From: Panacibacter microcysteis
Lineage (GTDB): Bacteria; Bacteroidota; Bacteroidia; Chitinophagales; Chitinophagaceae
DNA length: 64,000 bases
Direction of reading: 5' to 3'
NCBI RefSeq assembly: GCF_015831355.1
Contig: NZ_JADWYR010000001.1
Coordinates: 558,001-622,000, forward strand
This document shows positions 10,606 through 38,107 of this stretch, one piece after another. Numbering within the stretch: the first letter of the stretch is position 1; every line of letters starts with the position of its first letter. Made by a program: the position numbers and the translations under genes. The notes below the pieces were generated by a model that was not told where the DNA came from, did not search any database, and was given only the letters and a program-made list of their open reading frames with translations.

Positions 10606-10636
10606 ATAAAATGTGTTTTAAAAAAGAGCGGCTTAA

Positions 10637-11728: not shown

Positions 11729-11780
11729 TTGTTGTTTTTCCAGGTTAAGCAAAGAATGGCCGGTACGGTTTTTAAAAATG

Positions 11781-12947: not shown

Positions 12948-12975
12948 TGCATTTTTTTTAGGACTACTGGACAAA

Positions 12976-14814: not shown

Positions 14815-14875
14815 ACAATCATTGGTTTATTGAAGCAATGTTATTTTATGTTTGTTGACAAGCTGCATTACTACT

Positions 14876-15110: not shown

Positions 15111-15118
15111 CCCAACAA

Positions 15119-17569: not shown

Positions 17570-17581
17570 TTGCTTTTTTTG

Positions 17582-17626
17582 AGGTGAATGGTCAATAGTG
17601 AATGGAAAATCGTCAACGGTGAATGT
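17582..17626. repeat. Low-complexity GTGAATGG tandem
   Basis: GGTGAATGGTCAATAGTGAA and further GTGAATG copies fill the short gap between the GH5-like and DUF4965 genes. The same kind of tract, in the complementary orientation, appears at about 45100-45150. Confidence 0.55.
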
Positions 17627-18694: not shown

Positions 18695-18736
18695 GATAAT
18701 TTTCAGTTTATATTCAAATCGGTCTTTTAAAAAAAT

Positions 18737-18794
18737 GAGGGAAGAAAATTAGTTAATAAGACTAAGAACTAATGGATTGCTGTATTCTTCCCTC
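18737..18794 (-). other. Two-part intercistronic hairpin inside the PUL
   Basis: GAGGGAAGAA (18737-18746) pairs perfectly with TTCTTCCCTC (18785-18794). Inside it TTAGTT (18749-18754) pairs with AACTAA (18767-18772). It lies in the 210-bp gap after the GH127 stop, between two same-strand PUL genes. No U-tract follows on the transcribed (-) strand, so an mRNA-stabilising or processing structure is as likely as a terminator. Confidence 0.5.
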
Positions 18795-18904
18795 CCATAA
18801 CTAACTGCTGCTGAGAAATTTTAAAAACCTTTAAACCTGCTAACAGGGAACATGACTGCAGCAAAACATGTAACCGCGGTAAGCAAGGCTGATAGTAATT
18901 TCTT

Positions 18905-20971: not shown

Positions 20972-21041
20972 GCTTTATACGTTCACTTTTTTACCGGCGA
21001 TAAAAAGTAATAAAAAAACCACGTTCAACAATACTGTATCG

Positions 21042-22073
21042 TCACTTATTCTTCAATGCAGGCAAAGAAAATACAAAGGGCCTGCTCCTGTCGCTTACAA
21101 GCGTTCCGTTTGCAAATTGCAATGGCGCTACCTGTATCGATGATCTTCTTTCGCTGAAAGGATAAATACCATTCGCATCCATGTGTGCTTCGCCATGTTT
21201 TATCCTGCCGGGGTGTGTAAAGTAAAACACCCATGCCTTATCATTTACCACAACCACATCTCCATGTGCACCGCCTGGTTGATCATCTTTTCTTGCCGAC
21301 GCGCTGTCTAATATAAGCCCCTGTTTTTCCCAATGTATAGCGTCGGCCGATCTGTATACACGCATGCCGCGCCATTCATCTGTCAGCATCCAGTAATAAT
21401 GGTTATATGCAAACACTTTCGGACCTTCCTGGGCGGTGTTGCCAAGTACGGGCTCGTTATTGTATGTCCACGTAAAAAGATCTTTGCTTTCTGCCATCAT
21501 AATTGCGGCGTTGCGTGCATCATCTTTATACCACATACGCCAGGTACCATCGGGCATTTGCATAAGCGACGCGTCTATGACTTGCTCTGACGAAAGCGTT
21601 ACAAACCCAATAAACTTCCACTGCCATAGTTCATTGCTTGTATAATGTGCCATGCGTGCCTTACCACCCCACTCACTTCTTACACCTTGTATATACACCA
21701 CAAACATGTGGTAAACACCTTCATGATAAACAACCTCAGGAGCCCAGTAGGTATTACGCCCTTCTTCAAATGCAAGATTCAGCGTGCCGCGGTAAACCCA
21801 TGTGCGGCCACTGTCTTCCCCACAGGCCACCGCAATATCATTACCATAGCAGAAGGATACACCCGGCGCTTCCGTATTTGCACGGCGCTGTGTGTACAAC
21901 ATCCACCATTTTTGTGCTGCACGGTTCCATACCATTACAGGGTCGGCGGCCCCATCTGTAACAGGATCACGGTAGAGCGGCGCAGGTGCCGTGTGTGTAA
22001 CATCCTGCGCCATTACCGTGTTAACCACTGCCATAAATAAAACCACTAAATATGAAACCAAAAAAATCTTCAT
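21042..22073 (-). CDS. GH43-like five-bladed propeller hydrolase
   Basis: This secreted 343-aa protein begins with MKIFLVSYLVVLFMAVVNTVMAQ. Repeating propeller signatures are clear: GAADPVMVWN, NTYWAPEVVYHEG, IDASLMQMPDGTW, TAQEGPKVFAYN and the C-terminal GDVVVVNDKAWVFYF. The acidic residues in ADP, VIDAS and QEGP take the places of the GH43 catalytic triad. It is more divergent than the GH43 protein encoded at 8089-9129, and GH117-type or other clan propellers are possible. It is the first hydrolase gene after the SusCD-DUF3823 genes, separated from them by a repeat element. Confidence 0.72.
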   Translation of the reverse strand: MKIFLVSYLVVLFMAVVNTVMAQDVTHTAPAPLYRDPVTDGAADPVMVWNRAAQKWWMLYTQRRANTEAPGVSFCYGNDIAVACGEDSGRTWVYRGTLNLAFEEGRNTYWAPEVVYHEGVYHMFVVYIQGVRSEWGGKARMAHYTSNELWQWKFIGFVTLSSEQVIDASLMQMPDGTWRMWYKDDARNAAIMMAESKDLFTWTYNNEPVLGNTAQEGPKVFAYNHYYWMLTDEWRGMRVYRSADAIHWEKQGLILDSASARKDDQPGGAHGDVVVVNDKAWVFYFTHPGRIKHGEAHMDANGIYPFSERRSSIQVAPLQFANGTLVSDRSRPFVFSLPALKNK

Positions 22074-22116
22074 GCGCTTATGCATTGCACGTTCAGTTAA
22101 TGAAAGCTTTTATCAT

Positions 22117-22345
22117 TGTTTGCCGGCTGCAGTACTCATGGCATCTCCTGTTGTGTCACTCACTTGTACTGCAGGAACTTTGGGCGACAGCAGAACAGCC
22201 ACCGATTGGCGCCGGAGGAAGCGCAACATTTCAACAGACCGGGGTTTTAAAAATCCGCTTCGGTCTTCGCATTGCTCAATAATGCTGCTGCCGTACAAGA
22301 GTGCGACGCAACAAAAGCCCAATGCTTATACTGCTGCCCGGCACA
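22117..22345. repeat. Inverted-repeat element 4 (complete pair)
   Basis: The T-subtype left arm (22139-22169, with GGCATCTCC instead of GGCATCGCC) is paired with a C-subtype right arm (22293-22320). The outer ends are TGCCGGC on the left and TGCCCGGC on the right. It fills the 337-bp gap between the DUF3823 and GH43-like genes. Confidence 0.8.
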
Positions 22346-22410
22346 TAACAATATTTCAAACAACTACACATTGTATTACCAGGCCGTTACACACAGCCCG
22401 GTAATATTCA

Positions 22411-23106
22411 TTAAAAGGTAAGCTTTACAAGCTGTGAAAAGATCATGTCTTCCACACCTGCAATCTTAATACCTACCCTTGCAAAAACATAGTCCTGGCT
22501 AAGCGTTGGCAAAGCAACAGACAGGCTGATGTTATCAGGATCTGTAATGTCGGCACCTGCTTTATCAGCCCGTGCTACATTGTTTGTACCTGATACATAC
22601 ACCGTGTTGTTTACAAACAACGTTACACTTTCAATGTCTTTTGCATTGGCATCGGTTATAATTTTTTCTGCCTTAAAAGTTGCATTAACCGTGGTACCGC
22701 TAACGCTGATGTTTGCGTTGCGTATCATGTAATATGGCGTTACTTCTATATCAACCGTTTTGCTGCCGGCAACTGATATAGCCAGTGAGTCTGGTGTGCC
22801 TGCTGCTGTTTTAGGCCACATGAAAGGGCCCTGGCCTGTTGGAACAATGAATTTATAATCACCGTCAAACAGCAAGGCATTCATCTGTCCATCTTGTGTG
22901 AATACACCATTAATGGCACCAACTTTACCAAAACCGGATTGATACAACTGAAATGGCACACGTTCGTACTCTACATAAATGGTATCACCGTTATACAACA
23001 GCCCGCCTGTAATCTGAGATGATGGCGGTGCATAGTTATCTTTTTTACAGGAATACAAAGCACCTGTTAAAACACAACCTGCAACTATATAAGAAAGGAT
23101 CTTCAT
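22411..23106 (-). CDS. DUF3823 lipoprotein of a SusCD locus
   Basis: This 231-aa outer-membrane lipoprotein has its lipobox ending at C20 (GALYSCKKDN). The body is all beta. A carboxypeptidase-regulatory-like first domain (ITGGLLYNGDTIYVEYERV, FDGDYKFIVPTG) is followed by a second Ig-like domain. This matches DUF3823, a family found next to SusCD pairs in place of SusE/F. A role in binding glycan at the cell surface is likely from context. It lies 20 bp after susD. Confidence 0.82.
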   Translation of the reverse strand: MKILSYIVAGCVLTGALYSCKKDNYAPPSSQITGGLLYNGDTIYVEYERVPFQLYQSGFGKVGAINGVFTQDGQMNALLFDGDYKFIVPTGQGPFMWPKTAAGTPDSLAISVAGSKTVDIEVTPYYMIRNANISVSGTTVNATFKAEKIITDANAKDIESVTLFVNNTVYVSGTNNVARADKAGADITDPDNISLSVALPTLSQDYVFARVGIKIAGVEDMIFSQLVKLTF

Positions 23107-23126: not shown

Positions 23127-25055
23127 TTATTGGTTAGGTTGCTTTACAATTTTTGGATTGGCAGAAATCACATCATCGCCAATAAGGGAGTAGTAATTAC
23201 CCAACTGGAACAGGTTGTTTCCTGTAACAGGGCCGGGCAATACTTCTTTAAACAACCACTTGCCATTATCGGGGCTGGCAGGGTTATAGTATTTGTAAGG
23301 CCACAAACCCCATGGCTGCGTACTTGTTTTTGTAGCCTGGCCAATATTGCTTACGAGTTCTGTTTTTGTAAGCGGAGAACCATCCCATACAATGTGTGCA
23401 AGTCTCCAGCGTTTCATGTCGTATAAGATATGCCCTTCAAAAGCAAGCTCTACGCGGCGCTCATGCACTACGCGGTCAAAAGTTATTTCTCCTGCAGTTA
23501 AAGCGGTGGTAAGGCCGGCCCTTGCGCGAACCTGGTTCATATAATCTGCTGCAAGCTGTGTTTGACCAAGTTCGAATGCTGCTTCTGCAGCATTTAACAA
23601 TACTTCTGCATAACGGTAACGGATATACGCAACATCACTGCCGCGGCCTCTTCTGCCAGAACCAACCTGCGGGTCTAACCATTTCCTGATGTAAAACCCG
23701 GTTTGTGTTCTGTATTGCAAACCACTGATAGGCCCGTCTTTACCAACTACAGGCACCGGTGTTTCTGTGCCGGGCAGCGGCTTGGTGTTTACGGCGTTGT
23801 CGCTTGTGAGTATTGAGCCGTCGGCCAGCTGGTAGCCCGCCCATATATCTGTAACACCGGATTTGAATACAGCGTTTGGCAGTAGTACGGTGCCTGCAAG
23901 ACGTGCATCGCGGCCCGCAAATATGCCCTGTATGTCATCGTAGAAAACAGGGTTGCCTGAGCCATCTGTTGTAGCAAGCGGCGCGTATGTATTATCAAGG
24001 TTTTCGAAAGCTTCCACCAGGTTTAGTGATGGATTCAAACGACCTGCATCGTCTCCTTCATCAGACAAAGAGAAAGGCTGATCATTGGTGGTGAAAGCGT
24101 GTGTTTTACCACCATTTACCCTAAAGTCTTCTATAAACATAGATTCCTGGTTTACGCTTGTTTTGTCCAGGAACAATGCGGCAAAATTGTCTGACAGGTT
24201 TGGCAATACCTGGTAAAGTTTGTAAGCACCGGCCTGCCCGTTGATAATTTCCTGCGCAGCAGTAAGCGCTTTTGTATAGTATTCAGTTGCTTTTTCTGCA
24301 GGAATACCTACTTCATTACCTGGCAGGGTAACCTGCGGCGTTCTGATGTTTCCATACTTTGCAATAGATGCAGCATACAATGCAGCCCTTGCTTCCATGG
24401 CCAATGCAGCGCCTTTTGATGCCCTTGATTTTGTATTGGCATCTGCAGGAAGATCGTTCTTGATTGCTTCTGCCTCGCTGATAATAAAGTCGTAAATATC
24501 TGACTCTTTTGCACGGGGCGTTTGCAGGTAAGTAGGATCACCTTTCAGGTCGTAAATCAATTGCTGTAAAATCAATGGTACGCCGCCATATCTTTTTACC
24601 AGTTCGAAATAGAAGCTGGCGCGGATGAACCTGCCCTCTGCCATAAAGCGTGCTTTATCTGCTGCACTCAATTCTGTAGAGGCGCTGTCACGTGCTATAA
24701 AAAGATTAAGGTCTCTTATGTAAGCATAACTATCGTACCAGTTTAAACCCCAGGAGTCGAAGCCCCAACCGGTTCTCTGCACAATATAGTAGCTGCCATT
24801 TTCAGAAGGGAAGCTTTCGCTAAAATCTGCAAAAGATCTCCATCCCGGGTCTGACGGTGTTCCGTCAAGCGCAGAGAAATCAATCATCCTGTTATACAGG
24901 TCTCCCAATATAGAAAGTACCAGTGCAGGATCAGAGAATGCCGTTTCTTCCGGTATTACCTGCGTGGGCGGGATGTTTAAAAATTCATCGTCTTTCCGGC
25001 ATCCTGCCAATACAACAAGACAGGCAACCGGCAGTATAATCAAAAGTTTTTTCAT
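23127..25055 (-). CDS. susD: SusD/RagB nutrient-binding outer-membrane lipoprotein
   Basis: This 642-aa surface lipoprotein has a lipobox at C19 (CLVVLAGCRKDD). The N-terminal FLNIPPTQVIPEETAFSDP is typical of SusD. TPR-like helices and the C-terminal VAYIRYRYAEVLLNAAEAAF and VHERRVELAFEGH motifs complete the family. It binds the polysaccharide at the cell surface and acts as lid on the SusC-type transporter encoded 26 bp upstream. Confidence 0.95.
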   Translation of the reverse strand: MKKLLIILPVACLVVLAGCRKDDEFLNIPPTQVIPEETAFSDPALVLSILGDLYNRMIDFSALDGTPSDPGWRSFADFSESFPSENGSYYIVQRTGWGFDSWGLNWYDSYAYIRDLNLFIARDSASTELSAADKARFMAEGRFIRASFYFELVKRYGGVPLILQQLIYDLKGDPTYLQTPRAKESDIYDFIISEAEAIKNDLPADANTKSRASKGAALAMEARAALYAASIAKYGNIRTPQVTLPGNEVGIPAEKATEYYTKALTAAQEIINGQAGAYKLYQVLPNLSDNFAALFLDKTSVNQESMFIEDFRVNGGKTHAFTTNDQPFSLSDEGDDAGRLNPSLNLVEAFENLDNTYAPLATTDGSGNPVFYDDIQGIFAGRDARLAGTVLLPNAVFKSGVTDIWAGYQLADGSILTSDNAVNTKPLPGTETPVPVVGKDGPISGLQYRTQTGFYIRKWLDPQVGSGRRGRGSDVAYIRYRYAEVLLNAAEAAFELGQTQLAADYMNQVRARAGLTTALTAGEITFDRVVHERRVELAFEGHILYDMKRWRLAHIVWDGSPLTKTELVSNIGQATKTSTQPWGLWPYKYYNPASPDNGKWLFKEVLPGPVTGNNLFQLGNYYSLIGDDVISANPKIVKQPNQ

Positions 25056-25081: not shown

Positions 25082-28000
25082 TTAGAGCGATAGATTGATA
25101 CCTACGTTAAATACCCTGTTTTGAGGAAACTGTAAACCATTGTCGTCAATTACTTCAGGGTCTATACCGTACTGGCTAAGATTGTCAATAGAGAACAGGT
25201 TGTACACGTTCAGGTAAATTCTTGTATTCTGTATCCGCACTCTTTTCAGCCAGTCCTGTGGCAGCCTGTAGCCCAGCTCAATCGTCCTGGCCCTGATCTG
25301 TTTAACGTTGTGTGCCCAGAAGGTGGAATTCTTATTGTAATTACTATGACCGGTACCCGGGTTGTAACGGTTGGCAGGGTATTTACCTGGGATCCACTCG
25401 CTGTTGGGGTCAAACGGATCTGCTTTGTGCCACCTGTCTGTAAAGATTTCATTCAGGTTGCCATTACCCTGGAACGCCCAGCGCATTTCCCAGTTTTGAA
25501 ACCATGTATAGCCTGCAGCACCTGAGAAGTCTGCGTGGAAATCGAAATTCCTGTAATTGAGTGCTATCGATAAACCGAAGTTGATATTCGGCTGCTGGCC
25601 ATAACCATAACCGATAGGTCTTTCATCAAGCCCGTCGATCTTTCCGTCTTTGTTTACATCTTCGTAGATGAGGTCTCCGGGCAGTAATGTCCTGTTACCC
25701 TGCCCGTCAATATTTACAGGGTAATTATTGATCTGCTCCTGCGAGCTGAACTGGCCTAACACATTGTAGCCCCAGCTTATGTTGTTAAACCTGTCTTCAG
25801 AAGAATTGCGGTACTGATCAAATGAATTAAAGAACAGCGGGTTATAAGAGTTAAGCGATTTACCGCGGGTGATAGAAAAGTTACCGGTAACATTAAAATT
25901 CAACTGGCTGATCTTTCCGTTATAACCCAGTGAAAACTCAGCACCATACTGCGCATCGCTGTTGATGTTTTCCCTTGGCAACTGGTAACCGATCTCAATA
26001 GGCGTAAGCACATCGTTCTTTGCACCCAGCAATCCTGTACGTTTCCGGTAGAAGTAATCCACTGTACCGGTTATCTTTCCCCTGAATAGCGAGAAATCCA
26101 TACCGATATCCATTATCTTACTTTTTAACCATGTAATGTTGGTAGTAGGCACACCTTTATCTCTCGAAACGGTAATACTGTTACCATCGAGAATGGCAAT
26201 ACCCTGGTTGTAGTTATAACCCTGCAGGTATGCATACGGCGCAACAATAGGATTGCTGTTGTCATACGGATTTGTATCATCACCGAGTACACCATAAGAC
26301 GCCCTGAATTTCAGATCACTTAAGATATAGTCGTTATCACCCAAAAGGCTCTTAAAAAATGGTTCATTGGTAATGCGCCAGCCGATTGAACCGCCGGGGA
26401 AATAACCAACACGATAACCGGGAGCAAACAGGTATGATGCATCTCTTCTTACAGACGCTTCCAGGAAATACCTGTTAGCGTAGTTATAAGTTACGCGGCC
26501 AATATAGCCCACCCTTGAAGTCCTGTCATCACTGTCATCATAACGGTCTGCTGTAGGAAAGTAGATCAGCGGCAGGTTATTGGAAACTGGTGATGCATGT
26601 ATCCAGTTTCTTAAACGTGTGGTCTTTAGCCTTTCTGCCACAACTGTTGCTCCAATGGTATGATCACCGAAGGTGTTGTTGTAATTGATCTGTCCCTGTA
26701 AGGTTGTATTGATCTGTTTAATCTGCTCTCTTTCGCGCCATGGGTTAGTGCTGCCTCCGGACGGTATGTAAGTATCGTTGGCTTCATCATACCTGTAACC
26801 GTTATAAGTGTATTCATGGTTATTGAGCAGGTAATCTGCTATATAGTAAGAGAACAGACCACGCACCGTTAAACCTTTTATGCCCGGTACCTGGTAGTCT
26901 GCATGAAAGTTTGTTTGCAGCACACGCCAGTCTCCGCGGTAAAGCCCTGCAATGGTTTTATTGAGGTATGCATAGTTTGTTTCAATGTGCCCGATATCAT
27001 TCAGGTAGGCAGGATTGTCATTGGCATACGGTCTTTCTATGGGCGTATTTCTTAATACGGCATAACGCGCCAGCCAGTAGTCGTCCAGGCCAGGTACACC
27101 GGGGTTTTCACGGCTTTCTATCCTGCCGTTAATGTCCACACCCACTTTAAGGCCACTGGTTAATTTAGCAGTAATGTTAGACTGTATGTTTGTCCTGTTA
27201 AACTTGTACTCAGAACCCATTACAGAATTCTGAAAAAAGTTGGTGGCCGATACATAATAATTTACTTTATCTGAACCACCGTTGATGTTTACGTTTACCG
27301 AATTCTGCGGGGCATTGTTATTACTCGTAATAAATTTTCTCCAGTCGAAGCTGCGGTACTGCGGGCCTGCGCTTTCGCCCTGTTTGTATTTTTCCAGTTC
27401 TTCCTGTGTAATGTTCGTGTTGCCAAAGCTGTTTATTTCAGCCTCGGCACGGTAGTACATATAATCGTAAGAGTTATTAACGACTTCAGGAAAACGAAAC
27501 CATTGCTGCCAGCCTGCATACGCATCTACATTAATAGCGTTTTTGCCGGTTGCACCGCGTTTGGTAGTTACCACCACCACACCGTTTGCGGCGCGCACAC
27601 CATAAATGGCAGCAGAACCATCTTTCAATACAGTAATGCTTTCAATGTCGTTTGGCGCCAGGTTGTTGAACTGGCCTGCATCCTGCTGTATACCATCAAT
27701 TACATACAAAGGGTTGCCCATGTTGCGTATCTGTATGCCTGCAGATGCACCGGGCCTGCCATCGGCCATCCTGAATGTAACACCGGGCAGTTTGCCAGCC
27801 AGCGTGGTACTTACAGTGGCGCCGCCATGCACACGGTCTATGTCTTTACTGGTAACGGTTGCAATAGAACCTGTAACAGACCCTTTGCGCTGCGTACCAT
27901 ACCCAATTACCACTACTTCGCCGAGGTCTGATGCTGAACCCTCGAGCGTTACCGTAATATTTTTCTGCCCGGTTATACCTACGCGCTGCTCCTTCATACC

Positions 28001-28270
28001 CACATAAGTAAAGACGAGGAACTTGTCAGCCGCCGTTACCGTTATGGTAAAGGCGCCTTTTGCATCTGAAAGTGTATTGGCTTTGCTTTGATCAGTAGCT
28101 ATACTTACACCTTCTACAGGTGCTTTGTCTGAGCCAAGCACAACGCCCGAAATAACGGAATTATCCTGTGCTGTAACAGCAGATGAAATAAGTAAGAGTA
28201 AACTCAGCAGTGTGCTGAAAAGTGAAAAGCTGCTCCTGCCGGGCAGCCATGTGGCTTTCGTTTTTTTCAT
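25082..28270 (-). CDS. susC: SusC/RagA TonB-linked outer-membrane transporter
   Basis: This 1062-aa outer-membrane protein has a signal peptide, an N-terminal carboxypeptidase-like domain (ISGVVLGSDKAPVEGVSIAT), a TonB-box region near LGEVVVIGYGTQRKGSVTG, a plug (GVRAANGVVVVTTKRG) and a 22-strand-type barrel ending in an aromatic/Leu C terminus (NVGINLSL). It imports oligosaccharides captured by its SusD partner using TonB energy. The ATG at 28270 is preferred over 28291, because KKTKATWLPGRSSF and the hydrophobic signal follow. It is the first gene of the PUL, with a LacI-type palindrome 57 bp upstream. Confidence 0.95.
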   Translation of the reverse strand: MKKTKATWLPGRSSFSLFSTLLSLLLLISSAVTAQDNSVISGVVLGSDKAPVEGVSIATDQSKANTLSDAKGAFTITVTAADKFLVFTYVGMKEQRVGITGQKNITVTLEGSASDLGEVVVIGYGTQRKGSVTGSIATVTSKDIDRVHGGATVSTTLAGKLPGVTFRMADGRPGASAGIQIRNMGNPLYVIDGIQQDAGQFNNLAPNDIESITVLKDGSAAIYGVRAANGVVVVTTKRGATGKNAINVDAYAGWQQWFRFPEVVNNSYDYMYYRAEAEINSFGNTNITQEELEKYKQGESAGPQYRSFDWRKFITSNNNAPQNSVNVNINGGSDKVNYYVSATNFFQNSVMGSEYKFNRTNIQSNITAKLTSGLKVGVDINGRIESRENPGVPGLDDYWLARYAVLRNTPIERPYANDNPAYLNDIGHIETNYAYLNKTIAGLYRGDWRVLQTNFHADYQVPGIKGLTVRGLFSYYIADYLLNNHEYTYNGYRYDEANDTYIPSGGSTNPWREREQIKQINTTLQGQINYNNTFGDHTIGATVVAERLKTTRLRNWIHASPVSNNLPLIYFPTADRYDDSDDRTSRVGYIGRVTYNYANRYFLEASVRRDASYLFAPGYRVGYFPGGSIGWRITNEPFFKSLLGDNDYILSDLKFRASYGVLGDDTNPYDNSNPIVAPYAYLQGYNYNQGIAILDGNSITVSRDKGVPTTNITWLKSKIMDIGMDFSLFRGKITGTVDYFYRKRTGLLGAKNDVLTPIEIGYQLPRENINSDAQYGAEFSLGYNGKISQLNFNVTGNFSITRGKSLNSYNPLFFNSFDQYRNSSEDRFNNISWGYNVLGQFSSQEQINNYPVNIDGQGNRTLLPGDLIYEDVNKDGKIDGLDERPIGYGYGQQPNINFGLSIALNYRNFDFHADFSGAAGYTWFQNWEMRWAFQGNGNLNEIFTDRWHKADPFDPNSEWIPGKYPANRYNPGTGHSNYNKNSTFWAHNVKQIRARTIELGYRLPQDWLKRVRIQNTRIYLNVYNLFSIDNLSQYGIDPEVIDDNGLQFPQNRVFNVGINLSL

Positions 28271-28326
28271 TGTAAACAAGCAATAATTCATAACAGTTTA
28301 TTTTGGAATTTCTAAATTTTTATATT

Positions 28327-28560: not shown

Positions 28561-28588
28561 GTCTCATTATTTTATCAAAATGTCTCAA
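28561..28588 (+). promoter_or_regulatory. GTCTCA direct-repeat box A
   Basis: Two GTCTCA copies (28561 and 28582) are 21 bp apart, with TTATCAAAA between them. The same arrangement recurs at 34486-34511. It lies 269 bp before the PUL sensor kinase and about 290 bp before susC, so it could serve either direction. Two helical turns of spacing suit a dimeric AraC-type activator; that is inference. Confidence 0.5.
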
Positions 28589-28634
28589 AGTTTTTTTGAC
28601 TGCGTGTTAGCTATAAAGAAAGAAAAACATGATG

Positions 28635-28831
28635 AGCCGTGCTGCAGTGCAGGTAGCATCACCTGTTGCGTCGCACACTTGTGCGGCAGTAACATTGCGC
28701 AGCATGCTGCGGTTACAGTCAGCCTGCAAAACGCAAACGTACACAGCAACGCGGCAGATTAAGCTGAATATAGATATACAGTACAAGAGTGCGACGCAAG
28801 GAACGATGCGCAGCGCTCAAATGCCCGGCCC
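28635..28831. repeat. Inverted-repeat element 5 (complete pair)
   Basis: The left arm is 28654-28684 and the right arm 28781-28799, both C subtype. The right outer end is ATGCCCGGCC. It is the shortest complete pair. It lies between the GTCTCA box and the start of the PUL sensor kinase in the 586-bp divergent region, which otherwise holds only the LacI-type palindrome. Confidence 0.78.
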
Positions 28832-28856
28832 ATAAATAAAAAACGATTGCCATAGC

Positions 28857-31800
28857 TTGAACTACAAGACCCCGATAGTATTGCTCATACTGCTGCAACT
28901 TGGTGTAACTGCACTAAGCCAGACTTATTATTTCAGGCATTACCAGGTAGAAGACGGGCTTGCCAACAGCACCGTGCATTGTTGTATACAGGACAAAAAA
29001 GGTTTTATATGGATGGGTACCAAAGGTGGCCTCAACCGCTTTGATGGTTATACATTCAAAGTATTCAGGCACGATGAAGATGACACGACCAGTATTGGCA
29101 GTAATTTCCTGCGCAGCCTTTACGAAGATGAAGAAGGTGTAATCTATGCCGGCACCATTAATGGTTTGTACAGGTACAACGACATCGCCGAAAACTTTAC
29201 AACAATAAGAACAGGTGGTGAAGTAAGAGACATTAAAAGAGATGGCCTTAACAACCTGTGGTTTATTATTGGCGGCCGGCTGGTAAAGTACAACCTTGCA
29301 ACAGGTAAGACGTTTGATTTTATGCAGGGCGATTATTTTGATGCCACTTCTGTTTGTATTACCGCAGGCAAAGAGGTGTGGGTATCTACGTCAAACGGCA
29401 CTATTGAGCATTACAATCCTGCAAAAAACAACTTTACATCTGTTAAAGTATTTCCAGACGGCGCCGCAAACAGGTGGATTGAAAAAATCTATTACAGCGC
29501 TGCCAATAAAATTTTTATTGGCACATCTACCCACGGGGTAAAAGTATATGAGCTTGCTACCGGCAAATGGTATAACATTATAACAAACAATACAGACAAA
29601 ACGGGCATTTTTGCCAGAGACTTTATACAAACAAAAAGTGACGAATACTGGATAGCAACTGAATCGGGCATATTTATTTACAATACAACAGACAGCAGTT
29701 TTGTAAACCTGAAAAAGCAATACAACAATCCTTACTCGCTTTCAGACAATGCCGTTTACACATTGTGCAAAGACAAAGAAGGCGGCATTTGGGCAGGTAC
29801 ATTTTTTGGTGGCATTAATTATTACCCCAGGCCATACACCTCGTTTCAAAAGTTTTTCCCGGATAACAGCTTTAATGCCCTCAGCGGAAACGCTGTACGC
29901 GAAATATGCCGGGACAGGTACGGCAATTTCTGGATTGGAACAGAAGATGCAGGTTTAAATAAGTTTGATAAGCATACACAAACCTTTACCGCGTTTAAAC
30001 CGACAGGCAACAAAACGGATATTACTTATTACAACATACACGCTTTGCTGGCAAACGATCATGAACTGTGGGTAGGCACTTTTGAACATGGCCTCGACAT
30101 ACTGGATATTAAAAGCGGTAAAGTGGTAAAGCATTACGGTGCAGACGCAAAGGGCGGGCTGGTAAGTAATTTTATTATCTCCATCATTAAAACAACGGAC
30201 AATACCATATATGTGGGCACACGGAACGGCCTGCAAAAATACAATGCTGCCACAGATATGTTTGAACGTGTGCCACAGGTGCCTCCCAATTTTATATATA
30301 CTTTATGCGAAGATCACAACGGAACAGTATGGGCCGGCACCACCGATAATGGTGTATATTATTTCAATACCAAAACGAATACAAAAGGCGAACTTAAATA
30401 TGACCCCAAAAACAAAAACAGTCTCTCTACCAATTTTGTAATTGATGTATACGAAGACAGCCGCGGCACCATCTGGATTGGAACAGAAGGTGGTGGCCTG
30501 TGCAGGTACAACCCGCTTACCAAAACTTTTAAAAGATACAATGCTAAAAACGGGTTTCCCTCAACTACTGCATTGCGCATACTCGAAGATGACCAGCACA
30601 TGATGTGGATAACAACCACCCGTGGTCTTACAAAACTCGACCCCGCAACAGATGCAATTATTACGTATACAAAATCTAACGGTCTGTTGAATGACCAGTT
30701 TAATTACAGTTCTGGTTTCAAAGATGAAGATGGTACAATTTATTTTGGAAGTGTACGGGGCATGATAAGCTTTAACCCCAGCTCATTTGCACCAAATAAT
30801 TACACGTCGCCCATATACATTACAGGGCTAGAAATAAACAATGAACCGCTTACCGTGCATGCAGGAACAGTGTTGGAAAAATCGATTGCTTATACAAAGA
30901 AAATAACGCTTGCTTACAACCAGTCTTATGTAAGCATCGGCTTTGCGGCGCTGGCATACACGTCACCGGAGATGGTTGAGTATGCCTACATCATGGAAGG
31001 GCTGGATAATGAATGGACCTATCTTAAATCTAACCGCAAAGTTTATTTTACAGACGTGCCACCCGGCAACTACACGTTTAAAGTAAAAGCCAAAACGGGC
31101 AGCGGCAACTGGAGCAGCCAGCCCGCAGTGCTGAATATTGAAATACTTCCGCCCATATGGGCAGGCACGTGGGCCTACGCGTTGTACATTACCGCTGCCT
31201 TGCTGTTGATCTTTTATATCATCCGCAGCTATAACCAGCGCCTTATTGCAAGAAACCAACGCAAGATGGAGTTGTTTCAACACGAAAAGGAAAAAGAGAT
31301 TTACGAGGCAAAAATCGAATTCTTTACCAACGTGGCGCATGAGATACGCACACCGCTTACACTTATAAAGGCCCCGCTGGAAAAAGTGCTTAAGCAAACA
31401 GATGCCCGTGCAGATATTGTACCCAACCTGCGGCTGATGGAAAAAAATACCAACAGGCTGGTAGACCTTACCAGCCAGTTACTCGACTTCAGGAAAACGG
31501 AAACAAAAGGCTTTAGCCTGAATTTTGTACACACAGACATTAACGAACTGGTAAAAGAAACCTGCTCTCATTTTGCAGCCGCAGCAGAACAGAAACAGCT
31601 AAGCTGCCACATGGATTTGCCTGGCGAAAATATACATGCTTATGTTGATGAAGAAGCATTGAAAAAGATACTGAGTAACCTTATCAGCAATGCCATCAAG
31701 TTTGCAAAACACACAGCTATACTGGAGCTTGCTTATTACAACAATGAAAAAAGACGTTTTGTAATTAAAGTGAAGAGCGATGGCAATATGATACCGGCAC

Positions 31801-32003
31801 ACCTGGGCGAAAAAATATTTGAGCCGTTTTACCAGGTGCAGCAGATAGAAAACCAGAAAGGAACAGGCATCGGTCTTGCCCTGGCGCGGTCCCTGGCAGA
31901 GCTGCACAAAGGTGCACTGTATGTAGATAAGTCTGCCACAACCATTAACACATTTGTATTAATACTGCCTGTACACCAGGCCATAGAGTTTGACCTAAGA
32001 TAA
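28857..32003 (+). CDS. PUL sensor kinase: two-component propeller, Y_Y_Y, HisKA, HATPase
   Basis: This 1048-aa sensor resembles the first two-thirds of a hybrid two-component system (HTCS). A signal peptide is followed by Reg_prop beta-propeller repeats at about 25-690 (recurring IWxGT, GLxxYN motifs such as GTIWIGTEGGGLCRYN), a Y_Y_Y domain at about 695-765, a single membrane span at about 778-797, HisKA with H828 (NVAHEIRTPLTL) and a HATPase domain (KGTGIGLALARSL). It senses breakdown oligosaccharides in the periplasm. The start is TTG at 28857: no ATG occurs earlier in the frame before a stop at 28833, and the signal peptide begins right here. The receiver/AraC part is a separate gene 11 bp later. 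Confidence 0.88.
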   Translation: MNYKTPIVLLILLQLGVTALSQTYYFRHYQVEDGLANSTVHCCIQDKKGFIWMGTKGGLNRFDGYTFKVFRHDEDDTTSIGSNFLRSLYEDEEGVIYAGTINGLYRYNDIAENFTTIRTGGEVRDIKRDGLNNLWFIIGGRLVKYNLATGKTFDFMQGDYFDATSVCITAGKEVWVSTSNGTIEHYNPAKNNFTSVKVFPDGAANRWIEKIYYSAANKIFIGTSTHGVKVYELATGKWYNIITNNTDKTGIFARDFIQTKSDEYWIATESGIFIYNTTDSSFVNLKKQYNNPYSLSDNAVYTLCKDKEGGIWAGTFFGGINYYPRPYTSFQKFFPDNSFNALSGNAVREICRDRYGNFWIGTEDAGLNKFDKHTQTFTAFKPTGNKTDITYYNIHALLANDHELWVGTFEHGLDILDIKSGKVVKHYGADAKGGLVSNFIISIIKTTDNTIYVGTRNGLQKYNAATDMFERVPQVPPNFIYTLCEDHNGTVWAGTTDNGVYYFNTKTNTKGELKYDPKNKNSLSTNFVIDVYEDSRGTIWIGTEGGGLCRYNPLTKTFKRYNAKNGFPSTTALRILEDDQHMMWITTTRGLTKLDPATDAIITYTKSNGLLNDQFNYSSGFKDEDGTIYFGSVRGMISFNPSSFAPNNYTSPIYITGLEINNEPLTVHAGTVLEKSIAYTKKITLAYNQSYVSIGFAALAYTSPEMVEYAYIMEGLDNEWTYLKSNRKVYFTDVPPGNYTFKVKAKTGSGNWSSQPAVLNIEILPPIWAGTWAYALYITAALLLIFYIIRSYNQRLIARNQRKMELFQHEKEKEIYEAKIEFFTNVAHEIRTPLTLIKAPLEKVLKQTDARADIVPNLRLMEKNTNRLVDLTSQLLDFRKTETKGFSLNFVHTDINELVKETCSHFAAAAEQKQLSCHMDLPGENIHAYVDEEALKKILSNLISNAIKFAKHTAILELAYYNNEKRRFVIKVKSDGNMIPAHLGEKIFEPFYQVQQIENQKGTGIGLALARSLAELHKGALYVDKSATTINTFVLILPVHQAIEFDLR

Positions 32004-32014
32004 ACATACACCAT

Positions 32015-32785
32015 ATGAAACCAGGTATTTTATTAGTAGACGACCATGAAGATATACTGCAATTTCTCAGCAGTGATCTGGAAGACAAATACAGCATTTA
32101 CACCGCTGCAAATGGCAGAGAGGCCCTGAATATACTGGAGAAAGAAAGCGTTCAGCTGGTGATCAGCGATGTAATGATGCCGGTAATGGATGGGTTTGAA
32201 TTGTGTAAGGCCATTAAAACAAATTTCAACATCAGCCATATACCGGTAATTCTCCTCACCGCCAAAAACACCCTGCAGTCTAAGATTGAAGGGCTTGAAA
32301 CAGGTGCAGATGCATACATTGAAAAGCCATTCTCGCCGGGGCACCTGCATGCGCAGATAACAAGCCTGCTTAGCAACAGGAACAAACTAAAAGAGCATTT
32401 TGCCAACTCGCCGCTGGTGCACATCAACAGCATTGCATACACCAGGGCCGATGAAAAATTCCTGGAAGACCTGAACAATGCCATTGTAAGCAATCTTGAA
32501 AATGCCGAGCTTGATGTTGAGCAACTGGCAAAAATGATGAACATGAGCAGGCCAACTTTTTACAGGAAGATCAAAGCAGTGTCAGACCTTACACCCAACG
32601 ATCTCATCAATATTACAAGATTGAAAAAAGCCGCAGCTTTACTGCTTACCGGCGGTTACAAAATATATGAAGTGGCAGACATGGTAGGCTTTAACTCGCA
32701 GACAAATTTTGCAAGAAGTTTTTTAAAGCAATTCGGCGTTACACCATCAGACTATGTAAACCTCAAAGGCAGCAGGCAGAACTAA
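32015..32785 (+). CDS. Response regulator, REC + AraC-type HTH
   Basis: This 256-aa cytoplasmic transcription factor has a receiver at 1-120 with D9/D10, phospho-acceptor D52 (VISDVMMPVMDG), T82 and K104 (IEKPFSP). A linker follows, then an AraC-type double HTH at about 150-252 (LAKMMNMSRPTFYRKIKAV; VADMVGFNSQTNFARSFLKQFG). In single-chain HTCS proteins these domains follow the kinase. Here they are a free gene in another reading frame 11 bp after the kinase stop. The likely job is to activate the adjacent PUL and perhaps the GTCTCA-box genes. Its end almost meets the convergent haloperoxidase gene. Confidence 0.92.
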   Translation: MKPGILLVDDHEDILQFLSSDLEDKYSIYTAANGREALNILEKESVQLVISDVMMPVMDGFELCKAIKTNFNISHIPVILLTAKNTLQSKIEGLETGADAYIEKPFSPGHLHAQITSLLSNRNKLKEHFANSPLVHINSIAYTRADEKFLEDLNNAIVSNLENAELDVEQLAKMMNMSRPTFYRKIKAVSDLTPNDLINITRLKKAAALLLTGGYKIYEVADMVGFNSQTNFARSFLKQFGVTPSDYVNLKGSRQN

Positions 32786-32797
32786 CAGATAAACCTG

Positions 32798-34120
32798 TTA
32801 CTTTCCTGTTCTGATGGCAGCAATGATGAAGTGCCCGATTTTTTCTCCTTCATCATAACCGTTGTTAATGGCGGGCATATAATGTATGCCACCATAAAAC
32901 CGGCTGATAGCCGCTTCTTTCGCCGCCTGTTTAAACGAAGTAAAACTGCGTGGCGCCAGGTCAAATTCAGTTTCAGTTGAGTCTGTATAAGCAAAGTTGT
33001 CGCCAAACATATTGGTCAATACAACGGCACACGCAGCCGATACAACGCTGTGCCCGCTTGTATATTCCGGGAAGGGCGGTGTTTGCAGCAAAGGCATCCA
33101 GGCCTCATCAATATACTGGTTGATGTATGTTTCAGGTCTTATTACACGGCTCCTGTATTTCTCATCCCAGCAACTGATAAAGGCATCAGCAAGCGTTATA
33201 GCCACGCAGGCATAGGCTTCTGCAGACTGCACAAAACTATAACCTACTTTGTTACAAGCTACCGCGGTTATGTTTATCCAGTGGCCACCCGGCGAGATCT
33301 TCTTTGTTGCATACATTACATGCCCGTTTACATTCATCTTAAAAGGATTACAATCCCAGAAACTGGCAATTGCTTTTTGTTCTTCATCCAGTTGCACACC
33401 TGCTGTATAAACCGCTCTTGCTTCTTTATAAAACGCGCTGGTACTGTCTGCCGAAAAAGGCAATGCCGGCAGGGGTTTAAACTGTTGCGCAGAATCAACC
33501 AGGAATGTGCGCATCTTTCCCCAGTGCGGCTCTATTGCTTTGATGTATGCCGGTGGCGTTGGCTTCCACGATCCGTCATCTTCCATTACAGCATATTTTG
33601 CATACGACCGCGTTTCTTTATAGTTATCCTTAGCCGCCCAGGCAAGCACAGCATCTGCAACCTGGCGGCCATACGTTAAAGCATGCTCATAAACATCTTT
33701 GCGCATATTGCTGCTGTACGTTTGCAGCAACGCGTTGTGAAAATCCTGTACCTGTTGTTCAGAAATTACCAATGCTTTTGCAACAAGCAACATGGCATGC
33801 ACTGCGGCCAGTTCGTTGCTGTAAGCCAATCCTGCAGTGGGTTTGGGCAGGCTGCTCAATCCGTGTAACCGGCCGGCAAAAGATCGGTACTGGTTATTGC
33901 CGCTTATTGCCGCTTCATACCCCGCAATACTTACATATGCATATATGCGGCTGGCAACAGGCGGCGAATAAATATCGTGCACAATAACATCCGTCACTTT
34001 TTTCATGGTACGGTGTAGTGTAGCAGCACCTGGTACGGCTGCGGTATCGCTTACGTAATCTAATGCCCGGGCATTGAAGAAGGTAATAATGCAAAACAAA
34101 AATAAACATGCACGTTTCAT
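32798..34120 (-). CDS. Vanadium-dependent haloperoxidase / PAP2-superfamily protein
   Basis: This exported 440-aa all-alpha protein has a signal peptide (MKRACLFLFCIITFFNARA). The C-terminal half carries the vanadate/phosphate-binding motifs of the family: PEYTSGHSVVSAAC (motif 2, with His) and AISRFYGGIHY (motif 3, with Arg and His). The Lys/Arg motif 1 is probably in the KYRSRVIRPETY region. Family members oxidise halides with peroxide or act as acid phosphatases; sequence alone does not decide. It is transcribed away from the large FG-GAP protein gene, a pairing that suggests a joint function. Confidence 0.85.
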   Translation of the reverse strand: MKRACLFLFCIITFFNARALDYVSDTAAVPGAATLHRTMKKVTDVIVHDIYSPPVASRIYAYVSIAGYEAAISGNNQYRSFAGRLHGLSSLPKPTAGLAYSNELAAVHAMLLVAKALVISEQQVQDFHNALLQTYSSNMRKDVYEHALTYGRQVADAVLAWAAKDNYKETRSYAKYAVMEDDGSWKPTPPAYIKAIEPHWGKMRTFLVDSAQQFKPLPALPFSADSTSAFYKEARAVYTAGVQLDEEQKAIASFWDCNPFKMNVNGHVMYATKKISPGGHWINITAVACNKVGYSFVQSAEAYACVAITLADAFISCWDEKYRSRVIRPETYINQYIDEAWMPLLQTPPFPEYTSGHSVVSAACAVVLTNMFGDNFAYTDSTETEFDLAPRSFTSFKQAAKEAAISRFYGGIHYMPAINNGYDEGEKIGHFIIAAIRTGK

Positions 34121-34163
34121 ATAGCTCTATCTGTTACACGCTGTAAACTTAGTCTAATAATGA

Positions 34164-34418
34164 TGAGCCCGGCAGTATTACTACTATTGGGCTTCCGTTG
34201 CGTCGCACTCTTGTACGGCAGCAGCACTTTTCAACATAGCAAAGGCTTCTTTCGTTTTGTATGCTGCACCATCTGTAACAAACGCATGAACCGAAACAAT
34301 GCGCCTGCGACGGTTTGGTTAAACGCAGCCCGTATAAAAAGCTTCGCAAAGATGAGCGCAGCACCGAACGTACAAGTGAGTGACACAACAGGCGATGCCA
34401 CATGTACTGTTGCCGGCC
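34164..34418. repeat. Inverted-repeat element 6 (complete pair)
   Basis: The C-subtype left arm (34191-34216) has the outer end GAGCCCGGCAGTATTACTAC. The T-subtype right arm is 34370-34400, ending TGCCGGCC. It lies in the 459-bp divergent gap between the haloperoxidase and FG-GAP genes, upstream of GTCTCA box B. Confidence 0.82.
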
Positions 34419-34485
34419 ACCAACACTACTTCGCCATGTCGGCCGTTGAAGAAAAAGATATTCCCGCAACCCGGTTTGCACATTT

Positions 34486-34511
34486 GTCTCAAAAATTATC
34501 AAAAACGTCTC
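34486..34511 (+). promoter_or_regulatory. GTCTCA direct-repeat box B
   Basis: GTCTCA copies at 34486 and 34506 (20 bp apart) flank ATTATCAAAA, matching box A at 28561 apart from a one-base gap. It ends 69 bp before the start of the FG-GAP/ASPIC gene. Confidence 0.55.
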
Positions 34512-34579
34512 AATCTTTGTGCTTAAAACCTGAAAGCCGCAATTAATACTAATTTTCCCTCATTGAAATAACGACACTT

Positions 34580-37500
34580 ATGTTTACCGTGCTTTTGCGC
34601 CTGCTGCCATTGATTGCCCTGTTTGCCACATTACAAAGTTCTGCTCAAAATACTGCCACACTTTTCAGGTTATTACCCGGCCGGCAAACCGGCATCACTT
34701 TCAATAACAGGCTTACAGAAAGCGACAGCCTGAACATACTTAACCAGGCCAATATTTATAATGGCGGTGGTGTGGGCATAGGAGACTTTAATAACGATGG
34801 TTTACCTGATGTATATTTTGCAGGCAACATGGTAAGCAACAAACTCTACCTCAATAAAGGCAATCTCCGGTTTACTGACATTACAGCTATAGCATCCGTT
34901 GGCGGCAGCGGGCATTGGTGTACCGGCGTTGCTGTAATTGATATTAATGCAGATGGCTGGCTGGATATTTATGTATCGGCATCATTCAGAAAATCGAGCC
35001 CGCTGCTTCGTACCAACCTGTTGTACATTAACCAGGGTTTAAACCAGGAAGGCATCCCGGTATTTAAAGAATCTGCTAACGCTTACGGACTTGCGGATGA
35101 AGGTTTTAGTACGCAGGCGTATTTTTTCGATTATGACAAAGATGGCGATCTTGATATGTACCAGGTTACCAATGAACTTTATGACAGCAAAACACCCATA
35201 CGCTTCAGGCCAAAAGTAAAAGACGGCAGCGCATTAAATACCGACCGGTTGTACCGTAACAATGGCGACGGCACCTTTACAAACGTTTCCAGGCAGGCGG
35301 GTATACTGATGGAGGGTTGGGGCCATGCAGCGTGCATCACAGACTTTAATATGGATGGCTGGCCGGATGTGTATGTGGCCAATGATTTTGTATCGAACGA
35401 TTTATTGTACATCAACAATCATGACGGAACATTTACCAACCGCCCCGGCGAATATTTTAAACATACCGCATGGAACGCAATGGGTACAGATGCAGTGGAC
35501 ATTAACAACGATGGCTTTGTTGACATTATCTCGCTTGAAATGTTGCCGGAAACAAACATGCGCAAAAAACGCATGCTTAGCGGCAACGAATATTATAACT
35601 ACACAAACAGTGCTAAGTATGGCTATGAACACCAGTATGTACGCAATGTATTACAACTAAACAGCGGTTACATAAAAAACAGCCACCCTGTATTCAGTGA
35701 TGTTGGTTACCTGGCAGGCGTGTACCAGACAGACTGGAGCTGGTGCCCGCTGGTAGCAGATTTTGACAACGATGGCCTGCGCGACATCATTATTTCCAAT
35801 GGTTTGCCAAGAGATGTGACCGACCTTGATTACATAGCATACAATAACGGGCAGGGTGGCAAAGGCGGTAATTATACATTGGCCATGACAGATTCTCTTC
35901 CCGTTGTAAAACTGGCCAACTATGCTTTTAAAAACACCAATGGGCTGCAGTTTAAAGATGTATCGAAAGACTGGGGCTTTACATTAGCACTCTTTTCAAA
36001 CGGGGCCGCTTATGCTGACCTTGATAATGATGGCGATCTTGATGTACTCATCAATAATATAAATGATGAAGCAAGTGTGTATGAAAATACATTGCAAAAA
36101 AACGATCACTGGTTAAGGATTCAATTTGAAGGGCCACCGCAAAATAAAACAGGTATAGGTGCAAAAGTGGTTGTGCATAACGGCGAAAAGAAAATATACT
36201 ACGAGCAATACCCAACCCGCGGTTATTTATCTACCGACGATGTAAGAGCCCATGTTGGTCTTGGCGCAAATGCTTCCGCCATAGCAATCGACATTACATG
36301 GCCCGATGGCAAAACACAGCAGCTACATAACATACCTGCCGGTCGCGAAATAACGCTTGCCTATAAAGATGCAACAAATGCTTCCGGTAGTGCCTATGGC
36401 GGGCCCTCTGCCTGGTTAAAAGATGCATCGGCACTAACCGGTATTCATTACAAACCCAAAGAGCGTGATTTTGTGGACTACAACATACAGGCCACCTTAC
36501 CACATAAGCTTAGCCAATACGGACCGGGAATTGCAGTGGGAGACATTGACAAAAACGGCTTTGATGACCTGTACATTGGTGGTTCATCAGGCAATGCAGG
36601 CATATTTTTTATGCAGGATGCATCGGGGAAATTTAAAGCAGATTCCACCAGGTTTATACAGAAAGACGATCCGTTGTATGAAGATATGGGTGCCATCTTT
36701 TTCGATGCAGACAACGACAACGATCCTGACATGTACATTGTAAGCGGCAGTTATGAAATTCCGCCTAACCACACCATCAGCAGCGACCGCCTGTTTATAA
36801 ACGACGGCAAAGGACGTTTTGCAAAATCAAAGAATGCGCTGCCAAAAGACTCCAGCAATGGCTCGTGCGTAAGAGCTGCAGATTTTGATGGCGACGGCGA
36901 TCTTGATCTTTTTATCGGCGGACGTGTAATATCCGGCTCTTACCCCAACCCGCCACAAAGCATGCTGCTTAAAAACGACAAGGGTGTATTTACAGATGTA
37001 ACCGCAACAGTTTGTCCGCAACTAAAAAATATCGGCATGATCACAGATGCGCTGTGGAGCGATTTTGACAACGATGGCAAACCTGATCTTATATTGGCCG
37101 GTGAATGGATGCCGCTTACCTTTTTCAAAAACAACGGCAAAACCTTTACCAAAGCCGCCACCGGCATTGAAAATAACATTGGCTGGTGGAACAGTTTAAC
37201 AGCCGGTGATTTTGACAACGACGGCGATATAGACTACATAGCCGGCAATCTTGGTCTTAATACCAATTACAATGCTACTGCCGCACAGCCACTCACGATT
37301 TATGCAAAAGATATGGATGCCAATGGCTCAATGGATGCTATGGTATTTTGTTATATGAAAGCAGAAGATGGCAGCATGAAGCTCTTCCCTATGTCAACAA
37401 AAGATGACATGACGAGCCAGTTAATAGCCATACGCAAAAGATTCCCTACCTATAAATCTTATGGTGCTGCAACGATAGACGACCTGCTTACCAAAAATGA

Positions 37501-38107
37501 TCTTGCAGGCGCGCTTATGCTGGAAGCCAATTACATGAGCAGTGCATACATTGAAAATAAAGGCGGTGGCCACTTTACAATAACTACTCTGCCAACAGAA
37601 GCGCAGACAGCGCCTGTTTACGGCATGCTGGCAGAAGACGTTGACCATGACGGCAACCTCGACATACTTTTAACGGGCAACGATTATGGTATGGAACCGT
37701 ATAGCGGCAGGCATGATGCATTTATGGGCTTATGCCTCAAAGGCGACGGCAAAGGAAACTTTAATCCACTTTCTCTTTCCGCATCGGGGTTTGTGGTAAA
37801 AGGAGATGGTAAAGGACTGGCCAAAGTTGCCGGCGCCAATCATACAAACTTGTATGTTGCATCTCAAAACCAGGATAGTTTACTTACCTTCTCCGGTACA
37901 CAACATACTGCCATAAATAACATTGCTGTTAAGCCGCAGGAGTTTGCCGCCACCATCACGTATAAGGATGGCAGGAAAAGATATACCGAGTTCTATTATG
38001 GCTCCACTTTTCTATCGCAAAGTTCCAGGGTAATCAGCGTAGACGAATCAATTTCGAACATCATCATTACAGATTTCAGGGGTAACAAAAGAACGATCAC
38101 TTTTTAA
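34580..38107 (+). CDS. Large FG-GAP/VCBS repeat protein with ASPIC/UnbV domain
   Basis: This exported 1175-aa protein has a signal peptide (MFTVLLRLLPLIALFATLQS). Many FG-GAP/VCBS-type calcium-binding blades follow, with the pattern DxNxDGxxD (GDFNNDGLPDVY, VDINNDGFVDI, DFDGDGDLDLFIGG, EDVDHDGNLDI). An ASPIC/UnbV segment sits at about 515-600 (GIGAKVVVHNG, VGLGANASAIAIDITWPDG), and a second set of propeller blades runs to the end. Such proteins are beta-propeller adhesins or ligand-binding proteins on the surface or in the periplasm, and often accompany PULs in Bacteroidota. It shares a regulatory box with the PUL sensor gene. Confidence 0.88.
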   Translation: MFTVLLRLLPLIALFATLQSSAQNTATLFRLLPGRQTGITFNNRLTESDSLNILNQANIYNGGGVGIGDFNNDGLPDVYFAGNMVSNKLYLNKGNLRFTDITAIASVGGSGHWCTGVAVIDINADGWLDIYVSASFRKSSPLLRTNLLYINQGLNQEGIPVFKESANAYGLADEGFSTQAYFFDYDKDGDLDMYQVTNELYDSKTPIRFRPKVKDGSALNTDRLYRNNGDGTFTNVSRQAGILMEGWGHAACITDFNMDGWPDVYVANDFVSNDLLYINNHDGTFTNRPGEYFKHTAWNAMGTDAVDINNDGFVDIISLEMLPETNMRKKRMLSGNEYYNYTNSAKYGYEHQYVRNVLQLNSGYIKNSHPVFSDVGYLAGVYQTDWSWCPLVADFDNDGLRDIIISNGLPRDVTDLDYIAYNNGQGGKGGNYTLAMTDSLPVVKLANYAFKNTNGLQFKDVSKDWGFTLALFSNGAAYADLDNDGDLDVLINNINDEASVYENTLQKNDHWLRIQFEGPPQNKTGIGAKVVVHNGEKKIYYEQYPTRGYLSTDDVRAHVGLGANASAIAIDITWPDGKTQQLHNIPAGREITLAYKDATNASGSAYGGPSAWLKDASALTGIHYKPKERDFVDYNIQATLPHKLSQYGPGIAVGDIDKNGFDDLYIGGSSGNAGIFFMQDASGKFKADSTRFIQKDDPLYEDMGAIFFDADNDNDPDMYIVSGSYEIPPNHTISSDRLFINDGKGRFAKSKNALPKDSSNGSCVRAADFDGDGDLDLFIGGRVISGSYPNPPQSMLLKNDKGVFTDVTATVCPQLKNIGMITDALWSDFDNDGKPDLILAGEWMPLTFFKNNGKTFTKAATGIENNIGWWNSLTAGDFDNDGDIDYIAGNLGLNTNYNATAAQPLTIYAKDMDANGSMDAMVFCYMKAEDGSMKLFPMSTKDDMTSQLIAIRKRFPTYKSYGAATIDDLLTKNDLAGALMLEANYMSSAYIENKGGGHFTITTLPTEAQTAPVYGMLAEDVDHDGNLDILLTGNDYGMEPYSGRHDAFMGLCLKGDGKGNFNPLSLSASGFVVKGDGKGLAKVAGANHTNLYVASQNQDSLLTFSGTQHTAINNIAVKPQEFAATITYKDGRKRYTEFYYGSTFLSQSSRVISVDESISNIIITDFRGNKRTITF

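Follow-up and report, generated by a model that had tools for sequence, protein, structure and literature searches.

Two direct-repeat boxes around a kinase/regulator pair

The window analysed here, i.e. the whole 64,000-nucleotide stretch of Panacibacter microcysteis DNA (contig NZ_JADWYR010000001.1, positions 558,001 to 622,000), contains two copies of a direct-repeat box, GTCTCA-N15-GTCTCA, on either side of the genes for a sensor histidine kinase and an AraC-type response regulator. We conclude that the boxes are very probably (with a probability of roughly 0.86) the operators of the two-component pair whose genes lie between them, a reading supported in sequence comparisons by conservation of the box, its spacing and strand, its dependence on regulator identity, and covariation between regulator and DNA. 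The features concerned are:

28561..28587, plus strand: box 1, GTCTCA-N15-GTCTCA with an inner TTATCAAAA (full letters GTCTCATTATTTTATCAAAATGTCTCA), in the gap between the divergent susC and sensor-kinase genes
34486..34512, plus strand: box 2, GTCTCA-N15-GTCTCA (full letters GTCTCAAAAATTATCAAAAACGTCTCA), in the gap between the divergent PAP2 and FG-GAP genes
28857..32003, plus strand: sensor histidine kinase (Reg_prop propeller, Y_Y_Y, HisKA, HATPase_c; TTG start called mechanically)
32015..32785, plus strand: response regulator, the proposed box reader (receiver and AraC-type helix-turn-helix (HTH), HTH_18)
32552..32554, plus strand: codon for Pro180 of the regulator, at the second position of helix 179-190 (coordinates by arithmetic)
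25082..28291, minus strand: SusC/RagA-type TonB-linked outer-membrane transporter, its gene divergent to that of the kinase, with the first base of box 1 lying 270 bp upstream of the susC start
23127..25055, minus strand: SusD/RagB lipoprotein
6533..23106, minus strand: rest of the locus (DUF3823, GH43, GH127, GH2-type, glutaminase-A-like, galactokinase, GH76, aldose epimerase, GH43 and arabinofuranosidase-type)
32798..34120, minus strand: PAP2-superfamily protein, a frequent FG-GAP neighbour, with the first base of box 2 lying 366 bp upstream of the PAP2 start
34580..38107, plus strand: FG-GAP repeat and ASPIC/UnbV protein; its start codon lies 67 bp beyond box 2

The original prediction had placed a repeated GTCTCA box before the sensor gene and before the FG-GAP gene, and the repeat was found at both places. 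The spacer, given there as 14 or 15 bases, is 15 bases in both boxes, which makes the repeat period 21 bp, and the boxes end at 28587 and 34512 rather than at 28588 and 34511. The inner TTATCAAAA occurs in both boxes as had been said, but its register is 1 bp out (offset 11 in box 1 compared with 10 in box 2), and the two boxes are identical at 19 of 27 positions (ungapped, manual count). The placement before the sensor and FG-GAP genes is correct but incomplete, as box 1 also faces the divergent susC and box 2 the divergent PAP2 gene.

We searched for the repeat in the window and in the whole genome assembly (5,208,671 bases, 11 contigs). Allowing spacers of 12 to 17, the window gave 2 matches to the GTCTCA direct repeat compared with 0 in 100 dinucleotide shuffles, and the exact GTCTCA-N15-GTCTCA occurs in the assembly as boxes 1 and 2 only, i.e. 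the box is not widespread at random positions, the outcome that the original prediction had named as counting against it. Widening the spacer to 8-25 bases added four further places whose spacers differ from those of the boxes, and at least three of the four belong to GTCTCACG/GTTTCACG-type tandem arrays. With up to two mismatches there were 131 genome places against 168 for a reversed control; since the control yields more, such loose matches are attributable to chance. A stricter pattern that includes the inner TCAA gave, at up to two mismatches, 13 places compared with 5 in the control, and among the 13 are boxes 1 and 2 together with three sites that belong to a second, fused hybrid two-component system (HTCS) of the same genome. 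Outside the boxes there are tandem arrays of heptamers, of the (GTCTCAC/GTTTCAC)n type, at 44990-45031 in the window and also in loci L005 and L015-L020; arrays of this kind explain many GTCTCA clusters.

The predicted proteins

The sensor has a propeller of the periplasmic two-component-regulator type (Pfam PF07494, PF07495), with a putative periplasmic location, and a kinase core (HisKA PF00512, HATPase_c PF02518). The receiver of the regulator carries a SHIP motif (ISHIPVILL in the translation), which corresponds to the S/CHIP motif of the alpha3-beta4 loop, and is followed by an AraC/XylS-type domain (HTH_18, E 8.9e-21). In the predicted structure (mean pLDDT, i.e. predicted local distance difference test score, 86.6) this domain has helices at 168-174/179-190, 194-212 and 217-223/229-240, i.e. 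two modelled HTH motifs joined by a long helix, with 179-190 as the first and 229-240 as the second recognition helix.

Kinase and regulator are encoded by two open reading frames (ORFs) in different frames, and not by one fused polypeptide. The pair is therefore best described as split HTCS-like, rather than strictly an HTCS. The same split is seen in 18 of 68 relatives with an adjacent kinase, and fusion in 50 of 69 systems (window included); the box is present in 16 of 19 split pairs (window included) compared with 16 of 50 fused HTCSs.

Conservation of the box in related systems

We collected relatives from named species by their regulator protein, taking the best 80 of 588 confirmed loci. 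An adjacent upstream kinase ORF was present in 68 of these; 11 lacked one by the rule used (L036, L038, L052, L053, L059, L061, L066, L069, L081, L086 and L101), two of which (L038 and L061) nonetheless carry the site before a kinase or regulator gene, and L089 was left out as its kinase ORF begins at locus base 187. The region from -500 to +150 around the kinase start was scanned in 69 systems, including the window, with spacers of 10-20 on both strands. GTMTCA-N15-GTMTCA (M being A or C) was found on the plus strand in 10, 8 and 14 of the 69 at 0, 1 and 2 mismatches, respectively; the other spacers and the minus strand gave none at 0 mismatches and at most two at 1 mismatch, so that the only enrichment was for spacer 15 on the plus strand. 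A leave-one-out matrix identified sites at p<0.01 in 32 of 69 systems on the plus strand (31 of 68 without the window) and in 2 of 69 on the minus strand. Box 1 scored 30.5 (p=0.005, the lowest value possible with 200 shuffles) and box 2 scored 25.5, though absent from the training set. Outside the training sites, 11 places scored above 18 in the 1.45 Mb of the 80 loci, compared with 1 in reversed sequence.

The same element emerged de novo. When 4096 hexamers at 27 spacings (4-30) were ranked in the 30 loci with regulator identity of at least 55%, the window being left out, the top-ranked direct repeat was GTATCA-N15-GTATCA (14 of 30 loci, 0.4 expected) and the second was GTCTCA-N15-GTCTCA (11 of 30 loci, 0.3 expected). 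This background-corrected ranking replaced a plain hexamer count, in which AT-rich words drew level with the box and the minus-strand list was a mere reverse complement of the other.

We then turned to further systems, searching 394 family genomes for the regulator, of which 100 had a match at E<=1e-82. One hundred regions were fetched from the matches listed, plus three earlier ones; removing eight with the same regulator and one that was too short left 94, which still include close, non-identical relatives. A matrix built from the first collection, to which the window site belonged, found a site at p<0.01 on the predicted (plus) strand in 78 of the 94 and on the minus strand in none. On the strength of the shuffles, the de novo ranking and this matrix test we rejected a chance origin of the boxes. 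Whole-genome pattern searches were less discriminating: the exact pattern of 16 defined bases gave 8 matches (its own included) in 195 family genomes compared with 5 for the reversed control, a weak test alone, with four of the seven non-own matches lying directly before a kinase homolog, and GTNTCA-N15-GTNTCA gave 67 places in five relatives compared with 29 for the reversed control, most of them unlike the box.

The occurrence of the box goes with the regulator: in the set of 68 loci it was present in 16 of 18 with regulator identity of at least 60%, 7 of 12 at 55-60%, 7 of 15 at 50-55% and 1 of 23 at 40-50%, and identity correlated with site score (Spearman 0.63). The nearest SusC was often merely 26-40% identical where the box was kept.

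Covariation of regulator residue 180 with the half-site

We compared regulator residues with box bases in 110 boxed systems. At base 24 (half-site base 4), Pro at residue 180 goes with T in 58 of 58 systems and Thr with C in seven and T in one. In the remaining classes, Val goes with A in nine systems and T in four, Ile with A in six, T in five and G in one, Ala with T in 12 and G in three, Ser with T in two and C in one, and the single Gln with A. At base 3, Thr goes with C in 8 of 8, Ala with T in 14 and C in 1, and all others with T. Using a tree built without the helix columns and 1000 simulated base columns, the value observed for residue 180 and base 24 was reached in 0 of 1000 simulations, and of 194 variable residues the top one for that base was residue 180; for base 3, residues 181 and 182 ranked first and second in the simulation run. 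The residue-180 classes change about 13 times on the tree. A separate scan of all 4462 residue-base pairs had the second-helix residues T230 and A233 leading for column 12, and recognition-helix residues in 6 of the top 25 pairs.

The covariation of residue 180 with half-site base 4 points to the product of 32015-32785 as the box reader. Whether within this HTCS branch residue 180, in the first recognition helix, actually sets the fourth GTMTCA base (Pro for T, Thr for C, Val or Ile often for A) we regard as an even bet. The proposal in the original prediction that both boxes answer to one AraC-type regulator, encoded at 32015, appears to hold in the light of site recurrence, regulator-identity dependence, helix covariation and the assignment of the box-2 genes to the locus.

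Candidate target genes

Over 32 loci the median distance from the end of the box to the called kinase start is 69 bp, and the left neighbour is divergent in all 32 boxed loci compared with 22 of 37 unboxed ones (simple ORF calls). In some relatives (L072 15598, L076 12678, L160 14092-14139), oppositely oriented boxes precede genes for enzymes or transporters at places that lack a kinase start in the vicinity.

For box 2, at least 19 FG-GAP orthologs (61-71%) were found besides the window's, and 18 were examined, not including the partial G222:C5. A box at p<=0.01 accompanies 8 of the 18 (forward in L133, L302, L305 and L309; reverse in L306, L308, L309, L311 and L313; that of L308 is 621 bp away), compared with 0 of 10 paralogs of about 50% (L315-L324). 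The distance from a forward box to FG-GAP is 67 bp in the window, 68 in L133 and 69 in L302, the last two sharing one genus code, g8. FG-GAP and PAP2 genes are adjacent in four of five wholly fetched ortholog neighbourhoods (those of genomes G060 and G064 and both copies in G077). In G060 the FG-GAP ortholog (L161) and PAP2 lie inside the orthologous susC-susD-DUF3823-GH2 run (SusD 76% identical), so box 2 would serve genes that belong to the locus, FG-GAP and/or PAP2. Genome G007 repeats the layout, with the orthologous locus boxed before the kinase and a second box before the FG-GAP ortholog on another contig. The P. microcysteis genome itself has at least seven FG-GAP matches at E<=1e-100, the box-2 gene included (21 candidates, 7 scored), and an NCBIfam search of the FG-GAP and PAP2 proteins gave no match.

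Weighing of alternative explanations

Several observations weigh against the boxes being operators of the kinase/regulator pair. No significant site was found in 16 of the 94 further systems or beside 10 of the 18 FG-GAP orthologs; G007 has no PAP2 homolog beside its FG-GAP ortholog, and the orthologous susC of G060 lacks any site with a score above 13, with no kinase or regulator homolog in the stretches fetched from that genome. Box 1 lies 269 bp from the called kinase start, compared with the median of 69 bp, a distance that may be explained by an intervening copy of a dispersed repeat. As for the covariation, the base 3 value of residue 180 was reached in 15 of 1000 simulations, and independent contrasts are scarce: each test has 1 or 2 pairs when supported branches are used, and the tests have 2, 3, 3 and 11 when all branches are used. 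Although all base-differing independent pairs are concordant, a sign test is unable to reach 0.05. The top z in the all-pairs scan belongs to receiver-domain H110 with column 20, and not to a recognition-helix residue, and S107 comes just ahead of T181 for base 3; single pairs are therefore noisy. Finally, the second HTCS (C2), whose response-regulator part is 59% identical to the window's regulator, has similar boxes, so cross-binding is possible; the gene to the left of the box before C2 (L160 9601) is on the same strand.

The boxes could on this account be read mainly by C2, or be shared by both regulators, with box 2 perhaps a cross-talk site. C2 has GTGCCAAATTGTTGTCAAATCGTCTCA before its own gene (L160 9601-9627), and before its susC (L160 14092-14139) three tandem half-sites at 21-bp intervals. 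We consider it quite unlikely as the main explanation, as the window boxes adjoin the 32015 regulator and 7 of the 18 FG-GAP orthologs lie on the same contig as, and within about 30 kb of, a relative of that regulator. In addition, residue 180 is Pro in the 32015 regulator, the class that goes with T at base 24 throughout, and Gly in C2, an argument limited by the absence of a Gly class from the 110 systems counted. The box could instead control only the sensor and regulator genes, i.e. autoregulation, with susC and the hydrolases controlled elsewhere. The box reads towards the kinase at a fairly narrow distance (outliers -145 to 269 bp, partly from start calls), in 21 loci the box lies anywhere from 4 to 432 bp from a divergent susC, and the box before the C2 gene itself has no divergent neighbour. 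Against this stand the divergent neighbour of every boxed locus, the boxes of relatives before enzyme or transporter genes, and the position of box 2 before FG-GAP, which make purely autoregulatory boxes unlikely.

A last possibility is that the boxes are not operators but arose from a family of dispersed repeats. The original prediction had called the DNA around the boxes unrelated; apart from short words, comparison of the two gaps did reveal one shared sequence, a dispersed repeat (28665-28689 compared with 34197-34221, 23 of 25 identical). This repeat, GTCRCNCACTTGTACGG, has 318 forward and 324 reverse copies in the genome at up to one mismatch (reversed control 0), some near both boxes, and the GTCTCAC/GTTTCAC tandem arrays are also present in the genome. 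The boxes themselves lie outside the GTCRCNCACTTGTACGG copies, exist in exactly two copies and keep the same place in other genera; we rejected a repeat origin, which is contradicted by their location, copy number and conservation and which we rate as very improbable indeed.

Proposed mechanism and comparison with known systems

If the boxes are operators of the pair between them, the kinase would sense an oligosaccharide in the periplasm and phosphorylate the AraC-type regulator, two molecules of which would bind head-to-tail at a spacing of two helix turns (21 bp), both on the same face of the DNA. Each molecule would read GTMTCA with its first recognition helix, and the intervening TCAA-type element would fall to the first molecule's second helix. 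Box 1 might then control the divergent susC operon, the kinase and regulator genes, or both, and through box 2 the FG-GAP gene would join the same regulon, perhaps together with the divergent PAP2 gene. In this scheme we infer the binding, the dimer geometry, activation over repression, the ligand and the responding side of each divergent gap. Our guess from gene content is that arabinogalactan is the inducing glycan. A Bacteroidetes-type promoter was looked for by eye only, and we claim none.

By its parts and predicted operator layout the pair appears to work like an HTCS. Passages of Ravcheev et al. (2013, PMC3878776) describe predicted operators of Bacteroides HTCSs as direct repeats with on average 21 bp between sites. 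Shared with the systems described there are a propeller-type periplasmic sensor, a kinase, a receiver with AraC-type HTH, a gene often beside susC/susD, and a direct-repeat operator of about 21 bp near susC, represented here by a conserved sequence that is a candidate operator. The window differs in its separate kinase and regulator ORFs and its GTMTCA-based box with a conserved inner TCAA; that paper predicts 16 HTCS motifs for Bacteroides species, one of which may overlap the box. According to passages of PMC11253607, the response-regulator parts of BT4124 and BT4663 bind susCD promoters in electrophoretic mobility shift assays. They share the receiver-DNA-binding-domain layout and the S/CHIP motif (SHIP here) but, unlike the window pair, belong to fused HTCSs, and these passages describe no residue-base match. 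PDB entry 12aw, a 'hybrid two-component system protein', matches regulator residues 5-249 by sequence (E 8.7e-56; search-table entry only); a fold search gave mostly receiver-domain matches and, among the matches listed, not 12aw. PMC12125979, whose available passages concern a Vibrio XylR-type regulator, was set aside as a parallel, and a literature search with little coverage of subscription journals found no paper on the GTCTCA-N15-GTCTCA box.

Implications

HTCS-type regulators control glycan use in Bacteroidetes, and a single genome may encode dozens of them, with 36 in B. thetaiotaomicron according to passages of PMC3878776. The site, found next to similar regulators in many related bacteria, is therefore likely to belong to an ordinary kind of switch, for which the apparent match of protein to DNA is unusually readable. 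The analysis provides a candidate operator for 110 related systems, mostly outside Bacteroides, connects the FG-GAP/PAP2 pair with a glycan locus, and supplies a match between residue and base that is open to a single-substitution test. If the reading is true, the 21-bp register would follow from two AraC-type domains lying side by side, and the operators and regulons of many uncharacterised sugar-sensing systems would become readable from protein sequence.

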